The notes below the pieces were generated by a model. The model saw nothing but the letters and a program-made list of their open reading frames with translations. It made no database searches and had not been told where the DNA came from. From Perkinsus chesapeaki (taxonomy: Eukaryota; Perkinsozoa; Perkinsida; Perkinsidae), in contig JAAPAO010000203.1 in the NCBI GenBank assembly GCA_013115145.1, forward strand, positions 1 to 53,197: 53,197 nt of DNA, written 5' to 3'. This document shows, one piece after another, positions 4,237 through 50,915 of the stretch (the first letter of the stretch is position 1; each line of letters starts with the position of its first letter). Both the position numbers and the translations under genes were made by a program.

Positions 4237-4728
4237 ATTATTTGTATAATTCATGTGGAGCCACCTCTAAGAACTCCTTCAAATCCTTATGCCATAACTA
4301 CAGTCGCGTTCTCTCGTCTCGTCTCCACCAGTGTCACTCACACCTTCGCATACCCTCCAGCCCATCCTGCTAGTAAGACATCAAGCGCGTCTTGATCTGC
4401 GGTAAACGCCAGAAACATTCATCCAACTCGTCTGCGCATTGACCCTTGGTTTTCGGCGCACGGCGCCTTGCCTGAAGAAGGAGCCAGGAGGCATCCTCAA
4501 CAACGGTATTCCATGCTGATTGACCTTCAACTGTGGGCATTCATCGTACAGTTGCAAGAGCTGGACACTCACAGATAACCTCACAGTCCTATGGTGCTGA
4601 GCGATAAAACAATCGATTGAGTTTGAGAAATTGGTGCCCGGGGCCGAAGGAGCTGGGGTGACTGTCTCCGCGCCTTGGTGACACCGAACTCGTCGCCGAT
4701 GAGCCGTCTATCGATTCTCATATTCACT

Positions 4729-5478
4729 ATGGATCTCGACGTGAAAATGGGTCACCTTTTTGAGCTTGATCCAAGTATTCGTTTCCAAGCGAAGTACGGA
4801 GATTCGGAGCATCCGAAGGGAACATGGTACCGTGTTATTATGTCATTAACCTTGGCATGTACGGCTATCTATGGCGCACTCAGGATCGGTTTTTCACTAT
4901 CGGTCGACAATATAATAGAAGCGTACGTGTGGCAATGGCGGATCGAACTGCGTAACCTTGAAGTTAGTCCCGACCCTGCTACATTTGGCGATCTGGTTAA
5001 TACTACAGCGTGTATCGTTTCTGGTCCAGAAGATTATGTTAATATTTCATTCATTCTATCGATAACCAACAATCCTCCATGGCTGGAAGTTTATATCACT
5101 TCAGTGCGGGTCATTGAACCGGACTTGGATGGTATCCAGCTTAGAGCTCGGTCTCCACCATTTAAGGGCGACGGTGAGGTTCTCGTTCGGCAAGGAATTC
5201 AAGCGTATCGTGTGACGAGAGAGAAGTACAGAGAGTTGTGGGCCGTGGCAAACTTCGACACAGACTCCGCTCTATGGCTTGCACTCGATGTTCGGTTCTC
5301 AATTTTTGGTTATCAGGTAGATGGCCTCACTGTGAGAGGCTATGTAATACATAGTGCCCCGACCAGAGCGAATGATACTGAGGGTGCCTTACCACCTACC
5401 GACCGCTGGTTTGGCCCTATAGGCACATTCGGGAGAGACGACCTCTCCCTCCTGCTCCCAGCCTGTTTCACAATGTAG
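4729..5478 (+). CDS. LEA2-like single-pass membrane protein, copy B
   Basis: About 249 residues, intronless, same strand as copy A and about 3.5 kb downstream. Starts MDLDVKMGHL; TM helix near residues 33-55 (MSLTLACTAIYGALRIG). The rest is a predicted beta domain with NIS and TNNPPWLEVY. The two copies align without large gaps through GDGEV and then diverge in the C-terminal fifth, so selection seems to hold the TM and the sandwich core. The N-terminus faces the cytosol if the positive residues before the TM follow the usual rule. Function unknown. Confidence 0.6.
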   Translation: MDLDVKMGHLFELDPSIRFQAKYGDSEHPKGTWYRVIMSLTLACTAIYGALRIGFSLSVDNIIEAYVWQWRIELRNLEVSPDPATFGDLVNTTACIVSGPEDYVNISFILSITNNPPWLEVYITSVRVIEPDLDGIQLRARSPPFKGDGEVLVRQGIQAYRVTREKYRELWAVANFDTDSALWLALDVRFSIFGYQVDGLTVRGYVIHSAPTRANDTEGALPPTDRWFGPIGTFGRDDLSLLLPACFTM

Positions 5479-27082: not shown

Positions 27083-29656
<2,574 letters not shown>

Positions 29657-30669: not shown

Positions 30670-32028
30670 TCAATTCAGGTTCAGCCATGTCTCAACAAAC
30701 CGCACTTTAGTATTCATTCGCTCATCCGACAATCTCAGCGGCCATCTTTCAACACAGTCTCGAGCTATCAGCACTATCAATACCGCCTCCGCCGCCTTAC
30801 CTCTCCTGACACTGCATACCACTCCACACACCACATCCTCGTTAATAAGAGGGTAGTAGGTCTCACCGATCACCGAGAGGACCACATCAGTCCAAATATC
30901 ATCAACAATCTAACAAGTGATAAGTGACAACTGCCGATTTAAGCGATCTCCCATCATTTCCCGAAATACGGAGTCCATCAATCACATCCAATCCACAAGG
31001 CTTGGAATGCTCGTAACCTCATTTACATAAATGTACATGCGTCGGCATCATCATCACCACCGACTCGCATCACGCTTGCTCCCAGCCGTGCAGCTTATTA
31101 CGTTTAACGTGACCAGTACAACACAAAAAAGGATTCGAAAGGACCGACTTTGCGAACTTCACACGCATCCTACTCAACTTATCCCTCTTTTATAGAATCA
31201 ATCATGTAGCTCAAATTGAGCAAAAGCAAAGCGCTCCATCGAAGTAAAGAAATTCTTCAAACACTTGGCATAGCTGGGGTAAGAATTCTTCTATCCCAGC
31301 CATCTAATCCCGGATGCTCGCCCAGGCCTACTATGTCTACTAATTACTGTTATATTAGTACACTAATGATACTGACGCCTATTAACGTATGGTATCGACC
31401 ATACGTTTCACTACCTTTTGTTTCTCAGCCTTAACGATCCATCTGCCTCCCTCAGTGCATGCAGGATCCTCCCAGGCAGGACTCACACCAGCTCTAAAAA
31501 AGCCGGGCCTGGGATTCGAACCCGCGATCTCCCGCTTACTTGAAGACGCTGTAGTCCGCATGAACAAGTCTGCTGGGCTTGTGCATGTTATTAGAGATTC
31601 TCCAAAATTCTTCAATAGTATTAAAGTCGATGGCCTTCTGCTGGTTTTGCTGCCAATGATCTTTAACCGACTAAACGAAGCAGCAAAATGTGTATTCGTG
31701 AATCGCTTCGCTCCGCCATTTCTACTACCTTCCCTTGCTGTGACATGACCCACAAACTCCACTCATGCTGCAATTTATGATCTTCCACCGTACTAGGGGA
31801 CGCTTCTAAGATAACAAAAATACACCCACCAGGGATCGAACCCACGCCCTTTCCCTTACCTCCGTTAAACTTGGCGCTCTCCCCCTCGGCCACTGGAGCG
31901 TCGGCTTCCTTCTTCTCTTCTTCTGCGGGGACCGGCTGATTCACCACTTCCTCCTTTCGTGTCTCTTCCTCCTCCACAGGTGCCTCCTTCGTCGCCGCTG
32001 CTGCTGTTGGTTCAACCGATGATGCCAT
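30670..32028 (-). CDS. EIF4E: eIF4E, mRNA cap-binding translation factor
   Basis: Exons 32028-31860, 31805-31729, 31670-31540, 31493-31415, 30909-30801, 30764-30670; 219 residues, all in phase. eIF4E binds the m7G cap and recruits ribosomes. The N-terminal 55 residues are acidic and low-complexity. The core shows HEWSLW, DHWQQN, IEEFWRI, PAWEDPACTEGGRWIVKA and WTDVVLSVIGE with CGVVCSVRR. The three cap-stacking Trp positions and the Glu after the second cap Trp are present; the phosphate-binding basic residues are less clear. The last exon departs from the family and its 36-nt intron is the least sure junction. Introns 1 and 3 are tRNA-like (family B) and intron 2 is family C. Confidence 0.92.
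31384..31407. repeat. 10-bp perfect hairpin at an intron start
   Basis: AACGTATGGT, loop ATCG, ACCATACGTT. It lies just inside the 5' end of the long fourth eIF4E intron. Confidence 0.8.
31494..31539 (-). mobile_element. family B (tRNA-like) intron (eIF4E intron 3)
   Basis: 46-nt intron, GTAAGCGGGAGATCGCGGG then TTCGAATCCCAGGCC and a T-run before AG. It resembles the 3' half of a tRNA from the anticodon stem on. Confidence 0.8.
31671..31728 (-). mobile_element. family C intron (eIF4E intron 2)
   Basis: 58-nt intron with GGCGGAGCGAAGCGATTCAC and then CATTTTGC before the acceptor. Confidence 0.8.
31806..31859 (-). mobile_element. family B (tRNA-like) intron (eIF4E intron 1)
   Basis: 54-nt intron with AAGGGCGTGGGTTCGATCCC, then a T-rich 3' end TATTTTTGTTATCTTAG. 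Confidence 0.8.
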
Positions 32029-32044
32029 TATGGCTGAAAATTTA

Positions 32045-32506
32045 TTATTCAACGAGAGAATTAAACAAGCCGGTAATTAAGCCTGAAAACGATACCTCTG
32101 CCCACCCCGACACAGCACCAACAATCACCCCCCCAACCCCCCCCCGAGGAAACAACAAAGTCGTTCGGTAAGAAACGTAGTAGATAGTAGACGTGGTAGT
32201 GCTAGCTTCGACGTCGCTTGGGTCTCGCTCGCTTCCCATTGGAGGCCTGAAGCGAGGAGAATGGTCGTGTGCCACAAGACGAGATCCGTTTAAGCAGTGG
32301 AGCAGAAGGTGGGGGGAGTAAAGCCGGGCATTCACGGCCTGCACGCGAGCATTCCTGGGACGGTATAGTAGACGGTTTGATAAGAAACGTGCTGCTTGTG
32401 AAAACCCGAGAATCCAGAGAAGGGTTACTAATAGACAAAGGGGCAGCCTAAGGAGCGTGTTAAAGCTATAATGAGTAGTAGCTTTACTTCGGGGAGTCTC
32501 CTTCAT
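32045..32506 (-). CDS. possible small membrane protein
   Basis: Open frame of 153 codons from an ATG. A hydrophobic helix (LCLLVTLLWILGFSQAA) is followed by an Arg-rich stretch and a Gly/Val-rich C-terminus. No family. It may instead lie within a long intron or 3' UTR of the gene at 32560-33169. It ends 16 bp before the eIF4E start. Confidence 0.3.
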   Translation of the reverse strand: MKETPRSKATTHYSFNTLLRLPLCLLVTLLWILGFSQAARFLSNRLLYRPRNARVQAVNARLYSPHLLLHCLNGSRLVAHDHSPRFRPPMGSERDPSDVEASTTTSTIYYVSYRTTLLFPRGGVGGVIVGAVSGWAEVSFSGLITGLFNSLVE

Positions 32507-32559
32507 TTATATAATGATTTGAGGAAAGAGCGGTATGAGATTTAGTAAGTGCAACTTAC

Positions 32560-33169
32560 TTCAGCGGGACGCTTGCCGAGCTGCATTGGATCAAGTTCAA
32601 CGTTGCGAGATGCTTGGTGACGAGCCTGAAGGGAAGAGTAGGGATGAAGTATCTCAAGTTGGACCGCGCACGATACATATTAGGTTAATCGTCGCCGAAA
32701 GCCTGCGATATTGAGTAAGTGGAATGTGAGATAAGTCAAATTGGGGAAGAGTATCTTAGGTCGAACATCGTAAGATACAGAATACGTAATTATGATACTA
32801 CACCAAACAATACAATGCAGGAAATCTCAAGCATGAAGGGTATCTTAGGTCTACCCATGCAAGATACACTGAAAGTCGACTTACTTTCAATATATCATCA
32901 TCATAGTGTACCATACCCTCGCCGGCATTCGAAGAATCGACCAAGTCTTGCAAAGACCTCCCTCCACTACGAGGTGGGCCACCCGAGCTCATCTGACAAA
33001 ATATTCAAAGGTCGAAGCATGCAAGATACAAAACAGGTCAACTTACTGTCTTAGAAGCTTTAACAATATCTCCCAAATTGCTCTTCTTCACAGCCATGTC
33101 CGCCATCTCCCCCACTTCCTCCAAGGTAACAGTGCCTCCACTTCCACCCGATCTGAGGCGGAAAGCCAT
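32560..33169 (-). CDS. small protein of unknown function, 3' end unsure
   Basis: Exons 33169-33047, 32992-32885, 32625-32560 are all phase 0 and give 99 residues so far: MAFRLRSGGSGGTVTLEEVG, KKSNLGDIVKASKT, RSGGRSLQDLVDSSNAGEGM, RHQASRNVELDPMQLGKRPA. A donor GTAAGT follows. The next exon is not certain; the acceptor at 32084 would add Ala and a stop. Soluble, Gly/Arg-rich, no known domain. Its introns are the best examples of family A, one complete 54-nt copy and one with three units. Confidence 0.5.
32626..32884 (-). mobile_element. intron holding three family A units
   Basis: 259-nt intron with three successive diverged copies of the GTATCTTGCA... CGACCTAAGATACCCTTC element. The first starts at the donor itself (GTAAGTCGACTTTCAGTG); the last ends at the acceptor (CTACTCTTCCCTTCAG). 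Confidence 0.75.
32993..33046 (-). mobile_element. complete family A introner-like intron
   Basis: 54 nt: GTAAGTTGACC, GTATCTTGCATGCTTCGACC, ending TTTTGTCAG. The element boundaries are the splice sites. Confidence 0.8.
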
Positions 33170-33261
33170 CACATCTTCCGAACCGAGCTCGAGACTTGCA
33201 GCACTACATCAGCGACTTTCCCAAAAATAGAGATACAGGAATTTACAAAAAATAGCTGGGC

Positions 33262-33500
33262 ATTCATATATAAAGATATAATATAGTATATATTAATAAG
33301 GCGGCCCTAATATAAAGATATAATAATATATATTAATAAAGCCGTCCTAATATAAAGATATAATAATATATATTAATAAAGCCGTCCTAATATAAAGATA
33401 TAATAATATATACTAATAAAGCCGTCCTAATATAAAGATATAATAATATATATTAATAAGGCCGTCCTAATATAAAGATATAATATATATTAAAGAAATA
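33262..33500. repeat. 40-bp AT-rich satellite
   Basis: About five to six copies of a 40-bp unit beginning CCTAATATAAAGATATAATA and ending ATTAATAAAGCCGT, nearly identical. It lies between two minus-strand genes, close to the end of neuroguidin. Confidence 0.95.
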
Positions 33501-33536
33501 AGGATATATATCATATACCTATATAAGTAGTATTAA

Positions 33537-34496
33537 TTAATTAATAATACCAGGTACAATATCTATAACAAGACCATCCCTCCGAGTCCACACAGGTGTC
33601 GAGATCGAGAGCCCAGGTGACACCAACGTGAACGGTTGCCAAAGCCTACTACTAGTAGTAGAACGTAAGAACAGCATCTTCCCCCTCCTCCCGTACCCTC
33701 CCAACACAGTGCTCCTAAGTCGCCTCAGCTCCGCTTTATTCTGCTTGGTAGTAGGCAATCTCAACATATTATTTTCCTCATACTCCTCCCTTTCTGTCCA
33801 TTTATTAATAAGCCTACTGTCCTCAGCGCTCATAGGTCCCTTGCCCTCCCCAACGACTACAGGGGCATCACTGAACTCATCCCGAAGGTCCCGAACGGCC
33901 CGGGATCTCTCCAATGCCGCCAGCCTTCTCTCGGCCTTCTTAATATCTCCTCCAGTAACATCATTATTCATCATTACACCTCCGGCCACCTTCGGTGCTC
34001 GATACAACTGCTCCCCAGGTCTCCCCTCCTCCTCCTCCGCCACCTCCTCCTCTTCAAGGCCCTTTTCTAGACTGGCCAGATTAGGCCGATCTTGGAGCTC
34101 CTCATCCATCTGGCCTTCGGAGCTTGCCAACTTCACCAACCTATCAATTTGATACTTTAATTTCTGCTCGATCGGTCTCATTCTTTCCATCAAAGCCCTT
34201 TGCCAAGCCAGTTGCTTCACTACTGGATGCTCGGCGATGCTGATGCCTCGGTTCTTAAGTCTCATATAGTACCCCAAATTCGCCATATAGCTCATCAACA
34301 GCTCTAACTTTGCCATGATAAATCTGACCACCCCCTTATCGGGAAGCTCAGGAAGCTTGGATATGCATTCGGCAAGCGGCTTAGTGCGGGCTTCTAGCTC
34401 TTGGGAACATTCTTTATAGTGCGCTAAGATACTCCGATACTCCTCCACCTCACCAGCGACAACCTCTTGCCTCTTAGAAGGGGAAAGGGCTGCCAT
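33537..34496 (-). CDS. NGDN: neuroguidin/LCP5-like Sas10/C1D protein
   Basis: About 319 codons from MAALSPSKRQ. Sas10/C1D domain proteins such as LCP5 and neuroguidin serve in the small-subunit processome. The N-terminal helical domain shows LELLMSYMANLGYYMRLKNR, AEHPVVKQLAWQRALMERMR, PIEQKLKYQIDRLVKLAS, the strongest family match. An acidic linker (EEEEVAEEEEGRPGEQ) and YRAPKVA follow. EYEENNMLRLPTTKQNKAEL matches the conserved C-terminal YEExNFxRLxxxK block. The last ~50 residues do not fit the family and run up to the AT satellite, so a final intron may be missed. The region just upstream (34508-34574) is a tRNA-like intron, probably in the 5' UTR. Confidence 0.88.
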   Translation of the reverse strand: MAALSPSKRQEVVAGEVEEYRSILAHYKECSQELEARTKPLAECISKLPELPDKGVVRFIMAKLELLMSYMANLGYYMRLKNRGISIAEHPVVKQLAWQRALMERMRPIEQKLKYQIDRLVKLASSEGQMDEELQDRPNLASLEKGLEEEEVAEEEEGRPGEQLYRAPKVAGGVMMNNDVTGGDIKKAERRLAALERSRAVRDLRDEFSDAPVVVGEGKGPMSAEDSRLINKWTEREEYEENNMLRLPTTKQNKAELRRLRSTVLGGYGRRGKMLFLRSTTSSRLWQPFTLVSPGLSISTPVWTRRDGLVIDIVPGIIN

Positions 34497-34507
34497 GTAA
34501 GAAGACA

Positions 34508-34574
34508 CTGTGGTGAATGGTATTATTAAATGGCGCTCCTGGGACTAGAACCCTGGACCTTCTATCAGTCTTAC
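34508..34574 (-). mobile_element. family B (tRNA-like) intron before neuroguidin
   Basis: 67-nt intron with GGTCCAGGGTTCTAGTCCC. Its GGAGCGCC could pair with GGCACTCC in the exon just upstream, like a tRNA acceptor stem. Confidence 0.65.
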
Positions 34575-34840
34575 TAGGAGTGCCCAGGGCCGTCCAAGCT
34601 ACTTAAGTTGACCCTAGTGGTATCTTATTAGGCCGCTTAATACCTTGCGGAAAAAATCTTGAAAATTTTGCCAAAATGACGATAATGAAGATGATGTAAT
34701 TCATTTACACCGACAACTCGCTAAGTGTACGTAATGTGGCGCGCGCGTAGTTTTGTGGCGCAGTGACGGTGGTCTCTACCCGATTTCCACACACTTTTGG
34801 CGCGGATATTTTTAAGGTTAACTTGTTGACCTTTGCCTGA
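34575..34840. promoter_or_regulatory. divergent promoter region
   Basis: Separates the minus-strand gene run from the plus-strand run. It contains a family D motif (TTTTGTGGCGCAGTGACGG, near 34752-34770) preceded by GGCGCGCGCG. Thiolase starts at 34841. No TATA-like element is obvious. Confidence 0.45.
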
Positions 34841-38090
<3,250 letters not shown>

Positions 38091-38213
38091 CCAAACCACG
38101 CCCGGTTCGCCTCTAGAAGGCAATGGTGATCTAGTTTGGCAATGCCCTTCGGTCCTCTGCGACTGAGCACTTTGAGTGTTTGCAGTATCCTTTTTTGTCT
38201 ACATTCATCTACT

Positions 38214-39995
38214 ATGTCTCAGGCAGGCAGCAAACGTGAATGGGACCCTACGTTGGAGCCATTAAGTAGGCGAGAGAAGGTCGTGGGTTCGAATCCTGGC
38301 AGGGGTATTTTTATTTAGTGAAAGTGCTGATGAGCAAGAAGGGTATCAATCATCGCAATGCGACTGAAGTTGGCAAGAAGGTGGTCACCATCATCCGAGG
38401 TAGGAAAGATTCCCGGAAGCTCAGCTTGAGATTGTTAGGGGCGGTTATCTAGCCTCCCGAGAATGGGCTCTATGACGGTCAGAAATTGTTCCCTATATGG
38501 AGATATAATTAAAATATAGATAGAGTTGATAGATGCTGCTAGTGCAATAATGAACATTACGCCCCCTCTGTGCACATTCTATGTCCCCCCGACTCCCTAG
38601 GAGGAGAGGGACTGCTGCTCGGCTGCCTTTCTCCCTAATTTCGTGGCGCGCGGTCATTGATATTCCGTCAGGCAAGGAGTTAACTGAGTTCCTGCTCAAT
38701 AACGGCGCACTTCTTAAGAAGAGATGCCCCGATGCCTTGAAGGAGTATCTCGACGGTAAAATGCCGGAGTCGGAGGCCGATAATGCCAAGTTGGTTATAC
38801 CGCTCATACGAGGCGGTTTCATGTTCCGTTGTGTCGATGCTACGGTAGGGCCGAATGGGGGGGCTGTAGAATGTCTTGGATCAGATTCAAGCAACGGATA
38901 AGCCTTCTGGGAGCACAGAGCGTCGACGTCGGAAGTGGCCTGATAGGGTTGCTAGAGTGGCACCTCAACATCAAGGATATGATCCTAAGGGCCTTTATAT
39001 CGTGGAGTGGGAGGTGAGGGAGGGGAGAGGGAGGCGGAGCGAAGCGTTTCATGCTTACCATTTTTGTTATTTAGGGATCGAAGACCATGCAATATGTGTT
39101 GTTGGCTGTGATTATCACCGCGGTTCTTCTTATGTGTCTTTTCCCTGTATGGCCTTTGTGGGCTAAATTCGCTGTTTGGTAAGGGGTATCTTTGGCGGTA
39201 TCGCACTATGAAGAATTTGGGGTATCTTTCAGGTATCTTACGGTGGCGTTTTCGACCTTTATGATTGCGCTATTGATCATCCGTATGGTATTCTACGTCG
39301 CTCTATGGGCCTTTGGCGCTGACTTCTGGATTTTCCCTAACCTCTTAGATGAAGACGTAGGCGTCAACTTGACCTTTCATGTATCTTGCACGCTTCAACC
39401 TCGGATTTTTTTCAGCTCGGAGTGATAGAATCCTTCCAACCTCTCTATTCCTTCGCTTATCGTTCTGATGACTGGTTAATGATAATCTGCCGCGTCCTGT
39501 CCGTGGGCGTCATAGGCATTGCCCTCCACCAGCTCAGTCAGACGCACTCCTTGTCTGATATCGGCGAGTTTGCGAAGGTTCAGTTTTTGGATATTGTCGA
39601 ATGGGGCGAGAACAAGTTACAGAGCGGTAAGGTTCTAACTCATTACCAACACTGGGTAACGCAGAGTATCCACCGGTCGCAGGTTCGATTCCCAGGCTGG
39701 GGTTTTGTCCCTATTTTATTACAATTATCAAATACATATATTTTTTCTAGTCTCCTTACTCTCGAAAGTTCTTTTTGGAAATCTCGGCGGAAAATTTTCC
39801 GGTATTTTTTTGTTTTTTTCAGGTCCCGAGATGAAGCAAAGATTCCCCTCGCTGGAGCAAGTTAAACAGGAGACCGAGGTTGACTTTGACAACGACACGG
39901 AACGTGTCCACACCGACTACACTACCCAGGATACCGGCGACCAGGCTAAGGAGGCTGATGATGATATGGATGACTTTATAGATGAGGAGCAATAG
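38214..39995 (+). CDS. SEC62: Sec62, ER protein translocation subunit
   Basis: Exons 38214-38265, 38319-38399, 38672-38844, 38870-39013, 39075-39178, 39233-39356, 39416-39626, 39823-39995; 353 residues, all in phase. Sec62 works with Sec61/Sec63 in post-translational import into the ER. The cytosolic N-domain has FLLNNGALLKKRCPDALKEY and LIRGGFMFRC. Two TM helices follow (VLLAVIITAVLLMCLFPVWP and TVAFSTFMIALLIIRMVFYV), then the hallmark FWIFPNLLDED with ESFQPLYSF. The C-terminus is acidic (DDDMDDFIDEEQ). Of the seven introns four are repeated types: tRNA-like (1 and 7), family C (4) and family A (6). The second intron carries motif D and the third is only 25 nt. Confidence 0.95.
38266..38318 (+). 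mobile_element. family B (tRNA-like) intron (Sec62 intron 1)
   Basis: 53 nt: GTAGGCGAGAGAAGGTCGTG, GGTTCGAATCCTGGCAGG, T-rich end TATTTTTATTTAG. Confidence 0.8.
38400..38671 (+). repeat. intron with family D motif (Sec62 intron 2)
   Basis: 272-nt intron with CTAATTTCGTGGCGCGCGGT about 15 nt before the acceptor CCGTCAG, sense orientation. Confidence 0.7.
39014..39074 (+). mobile_element. family C intron (Sec62 intron 4)
   Basis: 61 nt with GGCGGAGCGAAGCGTTTCAT, CTTACCATTTTT and the acceptor TTATTTAG. Sense orientation. Confidence 0.8.
39357..39415 (+). mobile_element. family A intron (Sec62 intron 6)
   Basis: 59 nt: GTAGGCGTCAACTTGACC, GTATCTTGCACGCTTCAACC, ending GGATTTTTTTCAG. Confidence 0.8.
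39627..39822 (+). mobile_element. family B (tRNA-like) intron (Sec62 intron 7)
   Basis: 196-nt intron with CCGGTCGCAGGTTCGATTCC then CAGGCTGGGG and TTTTG. Longer than the other copies. Confidence 0.65.
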
Positions 39996-40057
39996 GCTCG
40001 ATGATGGTGATGATGATCATATTCCATCCTATGTGATGATCCTCCTTTCAAAAGGGA

Positions 40058-40465
40058 ATGCTGTGGTGTTATTATAGCGGGAATCTTTATAGTGGGATGA
40101 TGCTGTGGTGTTATTATAGGGGGAATCTTTATAGTGCGATGATGCTGTGGTGTTATTATAGCGGGAATCTTTATAGTGCGATGATGCTGTGGTGTTATTA
40201 TAGCGGGAATCTTTATAGTGGGATGATGCTGTGGTGTTATTATAGCGGGAATCTTTATAGTGCGATGATGCTGTGGTGTTATTATAGGGTGAATCTTTAT
40301 AGTGCGATGATGCTATGGTGTTATTATAGCGGGAATCTGTATAGTGCGATGATGCTGTGGTGTTATTATAGGGGGAATCTTTACAGTGCGACGATGCTAT
40401 GGTGTTATTATAGGGGGAATCTTTATAGTGCGACGATGCTATGGTGTTATTATAGGGGGAATCTT
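40058..40465. repeat. 42-bp minisatellite, about 10 copies
   Basis: Unit CTGTGGTGTTATTATAGCGG plus GAATCTTTATAGTGCGATGATG. The unit is a multiple of three and free of stops in one + frame, giving a 14-residue repeat MLWCYYSGNLYSAM. It follows Sec62 by 60 bp; no signal of a start or splice. Likely a non-coding minisatellite. Confidence 0.9.
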
Positions 40466-40919
40466 GATTCTTTCTCGAAGCAATGTTAGTAGTGTTGGAA
40501 TGTCCTCAGTCATCAGTAATCAATGAAATTCCTGCTGAGCAAACATTGGCCGGAATCAATGCCTTGTATTCGTTATCAACTTTTGTGGGGAAGTTCTCCT
40601 TCCCCTAAATGCAGACCGCGGTACTCTCTTATTGATCATTTCAAGATGTAAAGAGTAACGCCCAAGAGCTGGGTTAGCAAACTAGGTTCATATTACCCGC
40701 AGCACAGAATTCGACTGATTTTTCCCGGACTGGATTATTAATAATCTTTAGCCGCTCGTTACCAATTATCATCAGTAGTTATACGATTATAATACACTCT
40801 TATCGTTTTTATATAATAATGATAGTAATAATCAGATAATATAATAATTCTACTAGTATTATGTGAATGAATCTCTCGCCACCGAGAAGCAAGAATCCTT
40901 CAGCTTGTTTTCTCCCCTC
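40466..40919. other. intergenic region
   Basis: AT-rich, no recognised gene. Holds the promoter of the next gene. Confidence 0.45.
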
Positions 40920-46233: not shown

Positions 46234-48117
46234 ATGAGTTCCGATGGGCCGATCGGTCTGCTGGCATTGCAGTTCACTGCCGAAGAGCAGCTGTGGCGCA
46301 CCACGTACCGTACGTACTTCCGGACCACCGCGACTGTGGTTTCATCTGGCGCCCTGAGAATGGTCGCTGATTCGATAACCCTCTCTTTGTTGGGAGAGGA
46401 CCCTCGGGCCATGTCCTTCGGGTTCGCTGCTCGGTGCTCCCGCAATACCTTTGGCGTCTGCGTGATGGCAGGTAGCCCCCAACAGTGGGTGACTTCGACT
46501 CTCGTGTGGTCAGGTGTGAGCGAGTTTGTAGTGTGTCTCGTGCTGGTTGGTGTGTTTGTATGGCATTTCCAGGAGAAGCTGGGAGATCCCTTTTGGAACC
46601 GCTGGTGCGCTGGGACCTTCTCGTGGTCGGTTTTGACAGGAGCTGCCGAGTGGTTGCCGATGACGGTTTTATCTGCTAAAGTGACAGCCTTAGTGAGTTA
46701 CTCCGGCGACACATGGTCCTGGATAGAGTGCTCGATGGCCGTCACCGTAGCACTGGTAACGACCATAGTATGTACCCTATGTGTGCATGGTGCCCTCCAC
46801 AGAGGTGGTTCTGCTATATTTGTGCCCCATACGATGTCCCAGTATCTCACGTTGCTTACTATGTACTGTACGGGTGTGAGTGTTGGGACATCTTGGTGGT
46901 TGATAATGTAAGTCGGAACGGACTTCGGCAGACTTTTTGATTTCTAATAAACTGCATTAAGGAGTTTCGTAGAATGAGCTCAGCTCTAACTTTGAATCAA
47001 TCTTAATGTCGTTGGAACTTGCATCAAAACTACTTTCTTGGAGGGAGTTGAGGTTCAATTCCTTAACACCTGGCGAGACTTTTTGTAAGGTAATGGAGAT
47101 ATGGCTCCGCTAGCTCAGTAGGCAGAGCGTGTGGCTGTTAACCACAAGGTCGGTGGTTCGAACCCATCGTGGAGCGTTTTGTGGATTATTTGTTTGGAAC
47201 AGTCCGTATTCAGATACGTCACGTTCCTCAAATCCCAGCCAAACTCCTTATTCCTATCACTCTTCTGGTCCGCAGGAGTTACCACAGCAGCTGTGATCTT
47301 TTATAATCGCTATGGTCCGGAACCAATAATGCCCCACGGCAACCACACGTCCTCCTCACTGAAACGCTCAGCGTTGAGCTTCATGGTCTATGCCAGTGTC
47401 GTGTGCACGGCCAATGCGAACCATTCTACTTTGAAGTGTCTGATACAGTCGCTACACTCCTTCAACTTCCCAGTCGATGTGGATGCACAAGGTTTGCTGT
47501 TACTGGCATTCACAGCGTGGTTCGTCACGATGTTTGCTGCCTTTCTCGGTTATTGGATAACGCGAACGACACAAATCGGCTTCGGTGCTTCCGGGCGATT
47601 CTCCCGTATGGCTGTTGATGATGCTGATCACATGCAAAGTCCATGGGGAGTCCTAGCAGAGCAGAGTGCCCTCATAGTAAGTAAACATTTGTCAGAATCG
47701 ATTAGTGGGATACTTGCTTCACCGAGAGCCTTTCCTGATGGATGCATCAGGTCATGACATTCGACTGCCTGTCGCTTCTTTCCGCTTACCAGTGGGGCAC
47801 TGTATCTATGGGCTGCTTCGTGCTACTAATCGGCTCCTGGGCACTTCAATTCACTCCGGTGTAATATTCCTCACATTGCCGTGCGATTCCTGTCTAACAT
47901 AATAGGTATCTCCTTGGTAGTCTCATTTATGCCTCAGTTGTAGTGCTTGGGGTGTCATGGTTTTGCCGTACGTACATTCCGAGCGATGCAGAGAAGGCAA
48001 TGTAAGCGTCGTTCCTCATATTACTGTCCGCGCCTCTCTCTCAGGTACTCTTCTTCACTCCCATTAGGCTTCGAACCTCAGCGGCTGGAGAACCTTCCGC
48101 GGTCACCAATCGAGTAG
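46234..48117 (+). CDS. multi-pass membrane protein, unknown
   Basis: Exons 46234-46907, 47214-47676, 47751-47860, 47906-48001, 48045-48117; 471 residues, all in phase. Starts MSSDGPIGLLALQFTAEEQLWR. About eight to nine hydrophobic segments (EFVVCLVLVGVFVWHF, WIECSMAVTVALVTTIVCTL, SLFLSLFWSAGVTTAAVIFY, LLLLAFTAWFVTMFAAFLGY, LIYASVVVLGVSWF). Sequons NHTS and NHST lie in loops. No transporter signature recognised. The first intron (46908-47213) contains a tRNA-Asn gene on the same strand. Confidence 0.65.
47104..47175 (+). tRNA. trnN-GUU: tRNA-Asn (GTT)
   Basis: Complete cloverleaf: acceptor GCTCCGC/GTGGAGC (one wobble), D-arm with A-box TAGCTCAGTAGGC, anticodon arm TGTGG-CTGTTAA-CCACA, T-arm with B-box GGTTCGAAC, discriminator G, then TTTT. 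Lies inside an intron of the surrounding gene in the same direction. Confidence 0.95.
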
Positions 48118-48828: not shown

Positions 48829-49262
48829 CCTAAGCGTATCAGCCATGAGTTTATGAAAGGTGTTAAATAATTTACCAATTACTCATGCCGTTGCGTGAAC
48901 AGTAACACATCTCTAGGACTCGTACGGATAGAAAGTGCGCAAGAATGCCTCGATGGCTTATAGGCCAAAGTGCCGTTCATCTCGAGTTCGATCCAGTAGT
49001 ACACCGCGAAGATACACGGTTATTCCATACCGTGAAGTACCATAAAATGGCTGCGGTTAGTACTCGCTTATAGGGAGAGTATTAATTTGTGCACCGCGCG
49101 AATGCATCATGCGCCAACAGGAGCTAGACAGTTAATCGATAGCTTCGCCCTTCCCCACACAAACGGTCCCCTTAGCCGCCCTTAGTCGACGGTTTCTAAC
49201 TGAATTTGGCTAGTACGAACTCATCTTGCTTTAATAGTTTCTCTTCGTATCCCTCTTGTTGC
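48829..49262. other. intergenic region with tRNA-like fragment
   Basis: Contains CGAGTTCGATCCAG near 48980 with no foldable cloverleaf. Otherwise promoter sequence of the secreted gene at 49263. Confidence 0.4.
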
Positions 49263-50915
49263 ATGCGAATCGCCACCACTGCCGTCGTGGGCTACTTAGC
49301 CATGGTCAATTCTGTGACCGCCCGCCTCTCTGGCGAAAAGACAGTCTCCGAGAAGACCGCGGTGTTCACTTCGAAGGACGTCGAGAAGTACATTGCTCCT
49401 CAACCTTTCACGTCTTTCATGAAGCTTGGTGGCTCTTCTTCTACGTCGCCTGTTATGGACTGGATAGACAGCAGCATTGCTGGTCTCAAGTCCTGGGCCG
49501 GCTCCGAACTCCTCAGCTGGGGTAAGACGATTATTGATACTCTTGGTGACCATGTTGAAGGGGCTGATATGTATTATAACTTTATCCCAAGACATGTTGC
49601 CACGCTCGAGAATGGTGGCAAATGGCATAACTTCGAAGGTCGGTGTTTCAAAGATATCAAAGTAAGGTCTACCAAGCAGGATGACGGTACTACCAAGATC
49701 GAGGCTGACTACCAGAACGCTGTCTCCTGGACTTGTGCAGAGTACGTTCTCTTCGGCAATGCCGCGGACTTCCAGATGCAGTACAAGATTCATAGAGGCA
49801 CCGAGAGCTATACCTGGTCGGCCGATGACAGCAAGATTCACGTCTTGGATCTTCGTACATCCCTTACGGACGCGGCAGAGGGGATCATCAAGACCGCGGA
49901 TCTTCTACTTGGTCGCGAGCACGTTCTGGACTTCCTGAACCACTTCATGGGTGTCACACTGAACAAGCGCCCTAACCCTGGTGGAGTTGATATAACAGAG
50001 GAGAACATCCATCCCGGCGACGCGGTTCTCGTCACCAACATTCAGGGACAGAGTGCCACGATCATGTGGGGTTCGGGCTCGATGGCCAGCCATACACTCA
50101 TGTTCTTGCGTGAGCCTGAGACCCAGGAGCTTTACACCGTCGAAAGCTGGGCTGGTGGTGTGCGGAAACTTCCCTTCCAGGACTTCTTGAAAGACGACGC
50201 AGGCTGGTATAATAATGCAGTTCTTGTCCCACTCAAGGAGGAGCTTAGAGAGAGCTTTGATAACGATGCTGCCTGGAAGAAGTTCACTTCTGACTTTGAG
50301 GGCAACGACTACGGTTACAGCAACTTCCTCTTCACCACTATCGATACCCTTAAGGGTAACTACCCTTGTATGCCCATGGACAACTATCAAACGTGTCTCT
50401 CATGGGAGTTCATCGAAATCGGCCTCGGTCTGGTTGAGCGTTCTCGTCCCGATATGGCCCAGCTGATCTTCCTTGAGGCTTTCAACCATCGTATGGGTAC
50501 CTCCGAGCTGGGTCTAAATGACCTCTTGAAGTTGGCCGACTCTAAACTTGAAGGAGGTGCAGCGATGCTCCCTGTTATTCCTGAGAACGATGAATGGACA
50601 TATCACACCCATCATAACGGGCAACCCATCGTTGGGCCTTCTCGGGTATGCAGTGCACTCGCGTGCGAGTTACTTCGTGCTGGTGGTGTCTTGGGCGATC
50701 ACGCGTTATCTTGTTCTGAGTTTACTCCCTGGGATATCTACAGTATGGATATTTTTACCACGCCCACGTTCCAGCTTAAGGGTGACTACGCTATCGACTT
50801 GACTCTTCCTCATGCTCTGCCCCTCGGTCAGAAGCCTGTTACTGATGACATGGCAGAGACTTGCGCAACTATCATCACAGACGATTCCTTTTATGCGAGA
50901 GCTCCACATTGCTAG
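49263..50915 (+). CDS. secreted permuted papain-fold (YiiX/NlpC-P60-like) protein
   Basis: Single exon, about 550 residues. Signal peptide MRIATTAVVGYLAMVNSVTA, no later TM. The N-terminal ~200 residues are of unknown fold. Then the core: HPGDAVLVTNIQGQSA (GDxxL strand), GSGSMASHTLMFLREPETQ (catalytic-type His after Ser) and LYTVESWAGGVRKLP, the order seen in permuted papain proteins such as YiiX (His first, Cys later). GNDYGYSNFLF and RVCSALACELLRAGG, with Cys at the start of a helix, complete it. If active it would be a secreted cysteine hydrolase (amidase, peptidase or acyltransferase). The frame is open upstream to 49206, but this Met gives the signal peptide. Intronless. Confidence 0.7.
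   Translation: MRIATTAVVGYLAMVNSVTARLSGEKTVSEKTAVFTSKDVEKYIAPQPFTSFMKLGGSSSTSPVMDWIDSSIAGLKSWAGSELLSWGKTIIDTLGDHVEGADMYYNFIPRHVATLENGGKWHNFEGRCFKDIKVRSTKQDDGTTKIEADYQNAVSWTCAEYVLFGNAADFQMQYKIHRGTESYTWSADDSKIHVLDLRTSLTDAAEGIIKTADLLLGREHVLDFLNHFMGVTLNKRPNPGGVDITEENIHPGDAVLVTNIQGQSATIMWGSGSMASHTLMFLREPETQELYTVESWAGGVRKLPFQDFLKDDAGWYNNAVLVPLKEELRESFDNDAAWKKFTSDFEGNDYGYSNFLFTTIDTLKGNYPCMPMDNYQTCLSWEFIEIGLGLVERSRPDMAQLIFLEAFNHRMGTSELGLNDLLKLADSKLEGGAAMLPVIPENDEWTYHTHHNGQPIVGPSRVCSALACELLRAGGVLGDHALSCSEFTPWDIYSMDIFTTPTFQLKGDYAIDLTLPHALPLGQKPVTDDMAETCATIITDDSFYARAPHC

Follow-up and report, generated by a model that had tools for sequence, protein, structure and literature searches.

Introns resembling the 3' half of tRNA: a candidate introner family in Perkinsus chesapeaki

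The origin of new spliceosomal introns is an open question, and known introners are mostly DNA-transposon-like. As described in the main text of PMC9860276, introners are similar spliceosomal introns that recur in many copies at many gene sites, with several families in a genome and family-median lengths of 30-654 nucleotides (nt). The introner elements of Amoebophrya, a parasitic dinoflagellate, are likewise repeated introns, as outlined in PMC7789003. This report concerns repeated introns in Perkinsus chesapeaki that resemble those of both accounts and whose length falls within the range just given. They were found in contig JAAPAO010000203.1 of assembly GCA_013115145.1, analysed over its whole 53,197 nt (the window). 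The protein encoded at 49206-50912 shares 77% identity with a P. olseni protein, 66% with one of P. marinus and 63% with one of P. chesapeaki, which places the DNA in the genus Perkinsus. An earlier note on this DNA had claimed that seven introns in five genes carry a block from the 3' end of a transfer RNA (tRNA). All seven are present, and the block consists of a variable loop, B box, acceptor strand, discriminator and T-run.

The block belongs to a family that has many copies with tRNA-like spacing, is enriched in introns, leaves spliced reading frames confirmed by proteins and is absent from some paralogues. As similar multi-copy sequences that form predicted spliceosomal introns at many sites, its members are well supported as introners. 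We lean, by a modest degree, towards the explanation that the repeated unit is approximately the 3' half of a tRNA or of a tRNA-like RNA polymerase III (Pol III) transcript, which would be inserted into genes in either orientation and spliced out.

Copy number and placement in introns

Searches of the assembly (35.4 megabases in 884 contigs) compared each pattern with its reversed counterpart. With up to one mismatch, AGGTCNNNGGTTCGAATCC matched 326 times (62 of them exactly) against a single match of the reversed pattern, GGTTCGAATCCCAG matched 90 times against none, and a pattern that places C48, the B box, discriminator A and TTT as in a tRNA matched 464 times against none; tRNA genes, at least 62 in this genome, contribute to each of these counts. 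Within the window, GGTTCGAATCC with up to one mismatch occurred seven times against 0.95 expected, five of the matches being intron blocks and one a tRNA-Asn gene, while the seventh, at 48067, is probably due to chance. On these comparisons a chance origin of the blocks was rejected, and the genome-wide family that the earlier note had suggested is supported. The density in the window is above the genome average, with five sites (the tRNA gene included) fitting the AGGTCNNNGGTTCGAATCC pattern where the length of the window would predict about 0.5. A tally of two lists found 17 copies common to the GGTTCGAATCCCAG matches and the 62 exact AGGTCNNNGGTTCGAATCC matches, and this overlap suggests about 330 exact-core copies, provided that the two markers are independent.

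From the 62 exact AGGTCNNNGGTTCGAATCC matches, 50 were analysed and 48 passed filters; ARAGORN reported no tRNA at any of the 50, so that none qualifies as a tRNA gene by the criterion of a full-length cloverleaf. A pooled sample of 125 copies became 122 after removal of doubles and 106 when tRNA-like features were required. The spacing pattern of C48, B box, discriminator A and TTT is satisfied by 38 of the 106, and one of them is a tRNA-Ile gene (locus L009 at 2450), which was left out of the count of verified donors given below. Near-identical clusters of tRNA genes, mainly tRNA-Arg(TCT), were also seen on contigs C440 and C328 (L064, L065, L067-L069, L077 and L079).

The copies are concentrated in introns, as the earlier note had anticipated, rather than spread evenly outside them: 26 of the 48 exact copies lie in a callable intron of 35-70 nt, compared to 205 of 1354 positions drawn at random from the same loci (Fisher p = 1e-9). 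An earlier coding test with wide intron limits, which called 234 of 600 random positions, was discarded as too loose. The called introns are 41-69 nt long, with a median of 49 nt for sense copies and 50 nt for antisense copies. The sense bias seen in the window (six of seven) is weaker in the genome sample, where 17 of the callable introns are sense and nine antisense (p = 0.17). In 33 of 106 copies, versus 74 of 786 control windows, a strong GTRRG donor lies upstream of the B box at a distance of no more than 29 nt; the antisense equivalent, downstream of the B box, is present in 15 of 106 versus 47 of 786.

Predicted joints were compared with Pfam for 20 spliced peptides, hand-picked from 45, partly for their recognisable look, and including those of window genes. 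A domain clearly spans the joint in nine, from four sense and five antisense copies; the domains are WD40, IF4E, PEPCK_ATP, Adenylsucc_synt, DnaJ, DEAD (below its curated cut-off), HATPase_c, HisKA and GAS. In a tenth peptide (Exo_endo_phos) the domain has no more than about six residues on one side of the joint, and the remaining ten gave no Pfam support for the joint. Beyond Pfam, protein alignments bear out three more joints and confirm one of the earlier ones again.

The seven introns of the window

The core GGTTCGANNCC is intact in six of the seven window blocks, and homologous proteins or domains bear out the exon joints of five introns (one in adenylosuccinate synthetase, ADSS, two in eIF4E, and the first and last of Sec62). 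Pfam identified IF4E, Adenylsucc_synt, Sec62, Thiolase N and C, and Sas10_Utp3 domains in the window genes. The eIF4E gene, on the minus strand, has two such introns, both with the element in sense. One, of 46 nt (31494..31539), combines GTAAG at tRNA position 35 with the B box GGTTCGAATCC and TTTTTTAG; its joint falls inside the IF4E domain, where the protein of P. olseni is colinear and gapless. The other, of 54 nt (31806..31859), has the B box GGTTCGATCCC, and the P. olseni protein is again colinear over the joint. That alignment is gapless at both B-box joints and at the middle joint between them.

The 47-nt ADSS intron (28026..28072, minus strand) carries the only antisense element, with the B box GGTTCGATTCC on the plus strand at 28046-28056; the Adenylsucc_synt domain match (16-119 on 207-310), with 104 residues on 104 profile positions, runs across its joint without a gap. 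Sec62, on the plus strand, contains two sense copies. Its first intron (53 nt, 38266..38318, B box at 38286-38296) has a joint colinear with three Sec62 proteins from marine transcript collections, and the joint of its last intron (196 nt, 39627..39822, B box GGTTCGATTCC at 39682-39692) is colinear with P. olseni Sec62. Two further introns are predicted from splice signals. One, of 102 nt, lies near the end of the thiolase gene on the plus strand (37921..38022, alternative donor 37916; sense, B box at 37955-37965), where the Thiolase_C match stops just ahead of the joint. The other is a likely intron of 67 nt (34508..34574, minus strand, sense) directly upstream of the start codon of a neuroguidin-like gene with a Sas10_Utp3 domain, and its core is mutated to GGTTCTAGTCC. 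Introns of P. marinus range from 39 to 1622 bp and are mostly shorter than 100 bp, as outlined in PMC3101222, and 46-54 nt is therefore a normal intron size.

Other repeated features were noticed in the window by eye. An AT-rich tandem array occupies about 33260-33500 and units of about 40 nt follow Sec62 at about 40020-40490, while two open frames, at 116-1165 and 4675-5478, appear to be paralogues of one membrane-protein family.

Anatomy of the element and its donor registers

When aligned on the B box, the copies are conserved from about tRNA position 33 through the T-run, and conservation fades on both sides; no shared body was found past these limits within the 30 bases inspected on the 5' side or, on the 3' side, within 45 bases of the B box. 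The consensus is approximately TAAGCGAAAGGTCGCG-GGTTCGAATCC-CAGCGGCGGCA-TTTTT. Conservation of AGGTC, the core and CAG is partly built in, because positions 44-48 (AGGTCNNNGGTTCGAATCC) and 63-65 (GGTTCGAATCCCAG) were searched for. Neither the discriminator A, present in 66%, nor the T found in 47-71% at the five positions that follow belonged to the collection patterns. Among 26 of the 30 GGTTCGAATCCCAG loci, for which positions 44-48 were not searched, C48 occurs in 21, the discriminator A in 18 and the T-run in 16. The spacing of a tRNA 3' half, from variable loop through T arm, acceptor strand and discriminator to terminator, was thus found, and it supports the assignment of the element as a putative tRNA 3' half, as the donor registers do more weakly. 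In 53 tRNA-gene contexts, a T-run starts at the tRNA end or one base before it in 19, and there is no TTT nearby in 26. Two other sources of the conserved pattern were rejected. A palindrome in place of a B box is at odds with the near-invariance of T54, given that A59, its partner, does vary. The type II variable arm of tRNA-Leu or tRNA-Ser has similar GAAA loops, but only one of four pairs beats shuffles (p = 0.017).

Among 26 GTRRG motifs located 9-23 bases before the B box of verified sense copies, six start at tRNA position 35 (1.7 expected, p = 0.006) and five at position 42 (1.7 expected, p = 0.03). Genome-wide, GTARG followed within 14 bases by C-NNN-GGTTCGANYCC occurred 206 times versus 0. 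The matches listed, 100 of the 206, comprised 94 places after removal of six tRNA genes, and 25 of these donors are at position 35 and 21 at position 42, counts possibly inflated by remaining tRNA-Thr and tRNA-Ile genes. On contigs C1 to C62, with tRNA-Thr(AGT) genes left out by sequence, eight of 26 donors are at position 35. Donors of this kind are present in two tRNAs of the genome, in tRNA-Thr(AGT) as GTAAGCGGGAGGTCG starting at position 35 and in tRNA-Ile(TAT) as GTAGGTCG starting at position 42. The intron at L021 starts with the same GTAAGCGGGAGGTCG, an eIF4E intron starts with GTAAGCGGGAGATCG, one base different, and the introns at L029 and L104 start with GTAGGTCGCGGGTTCGA, as does one tRNA-Ile. 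The 3' parts, by contrast with these donors, do not match tRNA-Thr or tRNA-Ile, and direct copying of one known tRNA was rejected, no parent being present among 24 distinct tRNA sequences. A tRNA-like sequence close to the two splice sites is supported, with donors at tRNA registers and the T-run ahead of AG. Because donors favour these registers and the T-run can act as a pyrimidine tract before AG, a tRNA 3' half would be close to a ready-made intron.

tRNA-derived short interspersed elements (SINEs) have a Pol III B box, a Pol III-like T-run and many dispersed copies. The Perkinsus elements share all three and differ in their length of 45-55 nt and in that no shared A box or body was found. 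A strict A-box plus B-box pattern gave 36 matches, 35 with the spans of tRNA genes (54, 62 or 64) and one with a span of 46, none of them coinciding with any of the 62 exact copies. With a looser A box, one of 48 exact copies qualifies, that of thiolase, and there the A box is located in an exon. The SINE label applied in the earlier note is not supported, as there is no shared A box, no larger body and no target-site duplication.

Origin of the introns and comparison with known systems

Evidence bearing on gain comes from paralogues. Two eIF4E paralogues lack the intron, with 66 codons reading through the site without a stop (a weak third match covers 40 codons), and 12 of 22 other genomic matches to the DnaJ gene cross its intron site without a stop. 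These paralogues are old, so that loss of an intron may account for its absence there instead.

In the reading towards which we lean, the unit would begin in the anticodon loop or the variable loop, take in the T arm with its B box, then the 3' acceptor strand and discriminator, and finish in an oligo-U end. Copies would insert into genes in either orientation, and the spliceosome would excise them, in most cases as introns about 41-69 nt long (the two window exceptions are 102 and 196 nt). In sense copies, the donor may often be a motif that the tRNA already contains, either GUAAG at positions 35-39, known from tRNA-Thr, or GUAGG at positions 42-46, known from tRNA-Ile; the U-tail with the AG after it would serve as acceptor. 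In antisense copies, the pyrimidine stretch would come from the complement of the variable-loop region (GACCTTTCG...). We infer, by reasoning from these features, that the spread was RNA-mediated. Its route is the least certain step: it might be reverse transcription of the RNA, with the 3' end constant and the 5' end varying, the pattern of target-primed insertion. A stronger proposal, possible though doubtful, is that tRNA 3' halves are pre-packaged introns, which are reverse transcribed into Perkinsus genes and whose B boxes seed the next round; GURRG would be provided by the anticodon or variable loop, and the pyrimidine tract by the terminator of Pol III. Introns that keep a B box would then stay Pol III promoters, and a lineage selected for the B box alone could explain an intact core amid diverged flanks.

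Several observations weigh against a tRNA-derived, RNA-borne introner. At the DnaJ site, five of the 22 matches contain internal stops and another five break off about five residues or fewer from the site, as would be expected with the intron present. No empty site was found in the DNA, where flanks of 25 introns (of 36 prepared), once joined, matched only themselves. Of the 48 exact copies, 22 are not callable as introns, and the verified copies show the donor registers less strongly than the raw genome listing does. A parent tRNA was not found in an incomplete catalogue of 24 distinct tRNAs, the best mean match being 13.2 of 27 positions (tRNA-Met). No paired T stem is evident in the 48 copies, which were taken without a T-stem condition: the outer pairs 49-65 and 50-64, present in 17 and 18 copies, are no commoner than in shuffles (means 23.7 and 20.6), while pair 51-63 is present in 32 (shuffle mean 30), and the lack of outer pairing argues that these are not fresh tRNA copies. 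No target-site duplication was detected, since exon-start GT occurs in 25% of 52 called introns versus 26% of 65 control introns; AG/GT at the joints was rejected as such a duplication for the same likeness to control introns.

The constancy of the B box also has to be explained. When TTC was left free in the AGGTCNNNGGTTCGAATCC search, 62 of 65 matches still read TTC. From the first 38 one-mismatch AGGTCNNNGGTTCGAATCC matches, 12 tRNA-like ones were left out (three with tRNA-Thr sequence, two with sequence in a tRNA gene, six sharing one repeated sequence and one A-box plus B-box match), and 19 of the other 26 have their mismatch in the core: eight at position 60, six at 59, two at 57, two at 62 and one at 52, with none at 53-56, 58 or 61. 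This is puzzling because freely decaying copies would mutate alike at core and non-core positions. Two accounts are available: selection may act on the B box where it stands, or the copies may descend by repeated rounds of transcription that depend on the B box, their final branches being short. The former would fit an explanation in which introns host the motif rather than being created by it, and retain it for a B-box function, such as binding of TFIIIC at extra TFIIIC sites or insulators, or a Pol III transcript. The near-invariant TTC, the concentration of 14 of 19 core mismatches at the tRNA-tolerant positions 59 and 60, the loss of T-stem pairing and the presence of both orientations all agree with such retention, which we nonetheless judge unlikely, as it leaves unexplained why the introns are often hardly larger than the block, why donors occupy tRNA registers and why a discriminator and T-run follow at fixed spacing.

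The presence of both orientations would equally suit DNA transposons, similar to miniature inverted-repeat transposable elements, that had picked up a tRNA end, and DNA transposition fits most introners described so far, according to PMC9860276. This origin appears improbable here: the 5' end is variable and the 3' end fixed, target-site duplication does not exceed that of control introns, and no terminal inverted repeats were evident by eye in aligned copies. Least probable of all is the ordinary ageing of tRNA pseudogenes that lie in introns by happenstance. Their spacing would be tRNA-like, and 22 of 48 copies do fall outside callable introns, but the A-box patterns tried revealed no 5' half, intron ends lie near the block ends and the core is undecayed.

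Two further repeated cores were observed. GGCGGAGCGAAGCGNTTCA occurs in four likely introns of the window (27834-27879, 28234-28275, 31671-31728 on the minus strand and 39014-39074 on the plus strand), the eIF4E joint at 31671-31728 being confirmed by P. olseni; with up to one mismatch it matches 196 times in the genome versus 0 reversed, and it looks like a second introner family. TTTCGTGGCGCAGTGACGG, which by eye resembles a tRNA A box, occurs at 36048-36092 and 34751-34769 in the window and near 678 in L006, in at least one likely intron (36048-36092); with up to two mismatches it matches 190 times in the genome versus 0 reversed, and it could be the 5'-half counterpart of the B-box element. 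These two families are at least partly intronic, which suggests that the genome contains several of the kind.

If the tRNA-derived origin is correct, tRNA 3' ends would constitute an RNA-borne, universal source of introns with ready-made splice signals, which could be checked wherever tRNA retrocopies exist, and Pol III biology would be tied to gene structure in a lineage neighbouring the dinoflagellates. Searches of an open-access library, judged by title and the start of the abstract, brought up no tRNA-derived introner. The words 'SINE', 'tRNA' and 'Perkinsus' do not occur in the main text of PMC9860276; unlike the introners described there, the Perkinsus unit approximates a tRNA 3' half, and target-site duplications and terminal inverted repeats were not seen in its copies. 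The elements of Amoebophrya, in the outline of PMC7789003, have inverted and direct repeats and non-canonical splice sites, whereas the Perkinsus copies have GT-AG boundaries and a tRNA-like core. Mammalian tailless retropseudogenes, as outlined in PMC5322556, are comparable as truncated tRNA copies that number in the hundreds per genome; they are truncated at the 3' end and carry target-site duplications, whereas the Perkinsus copies are without the 5' half and reside in introns.

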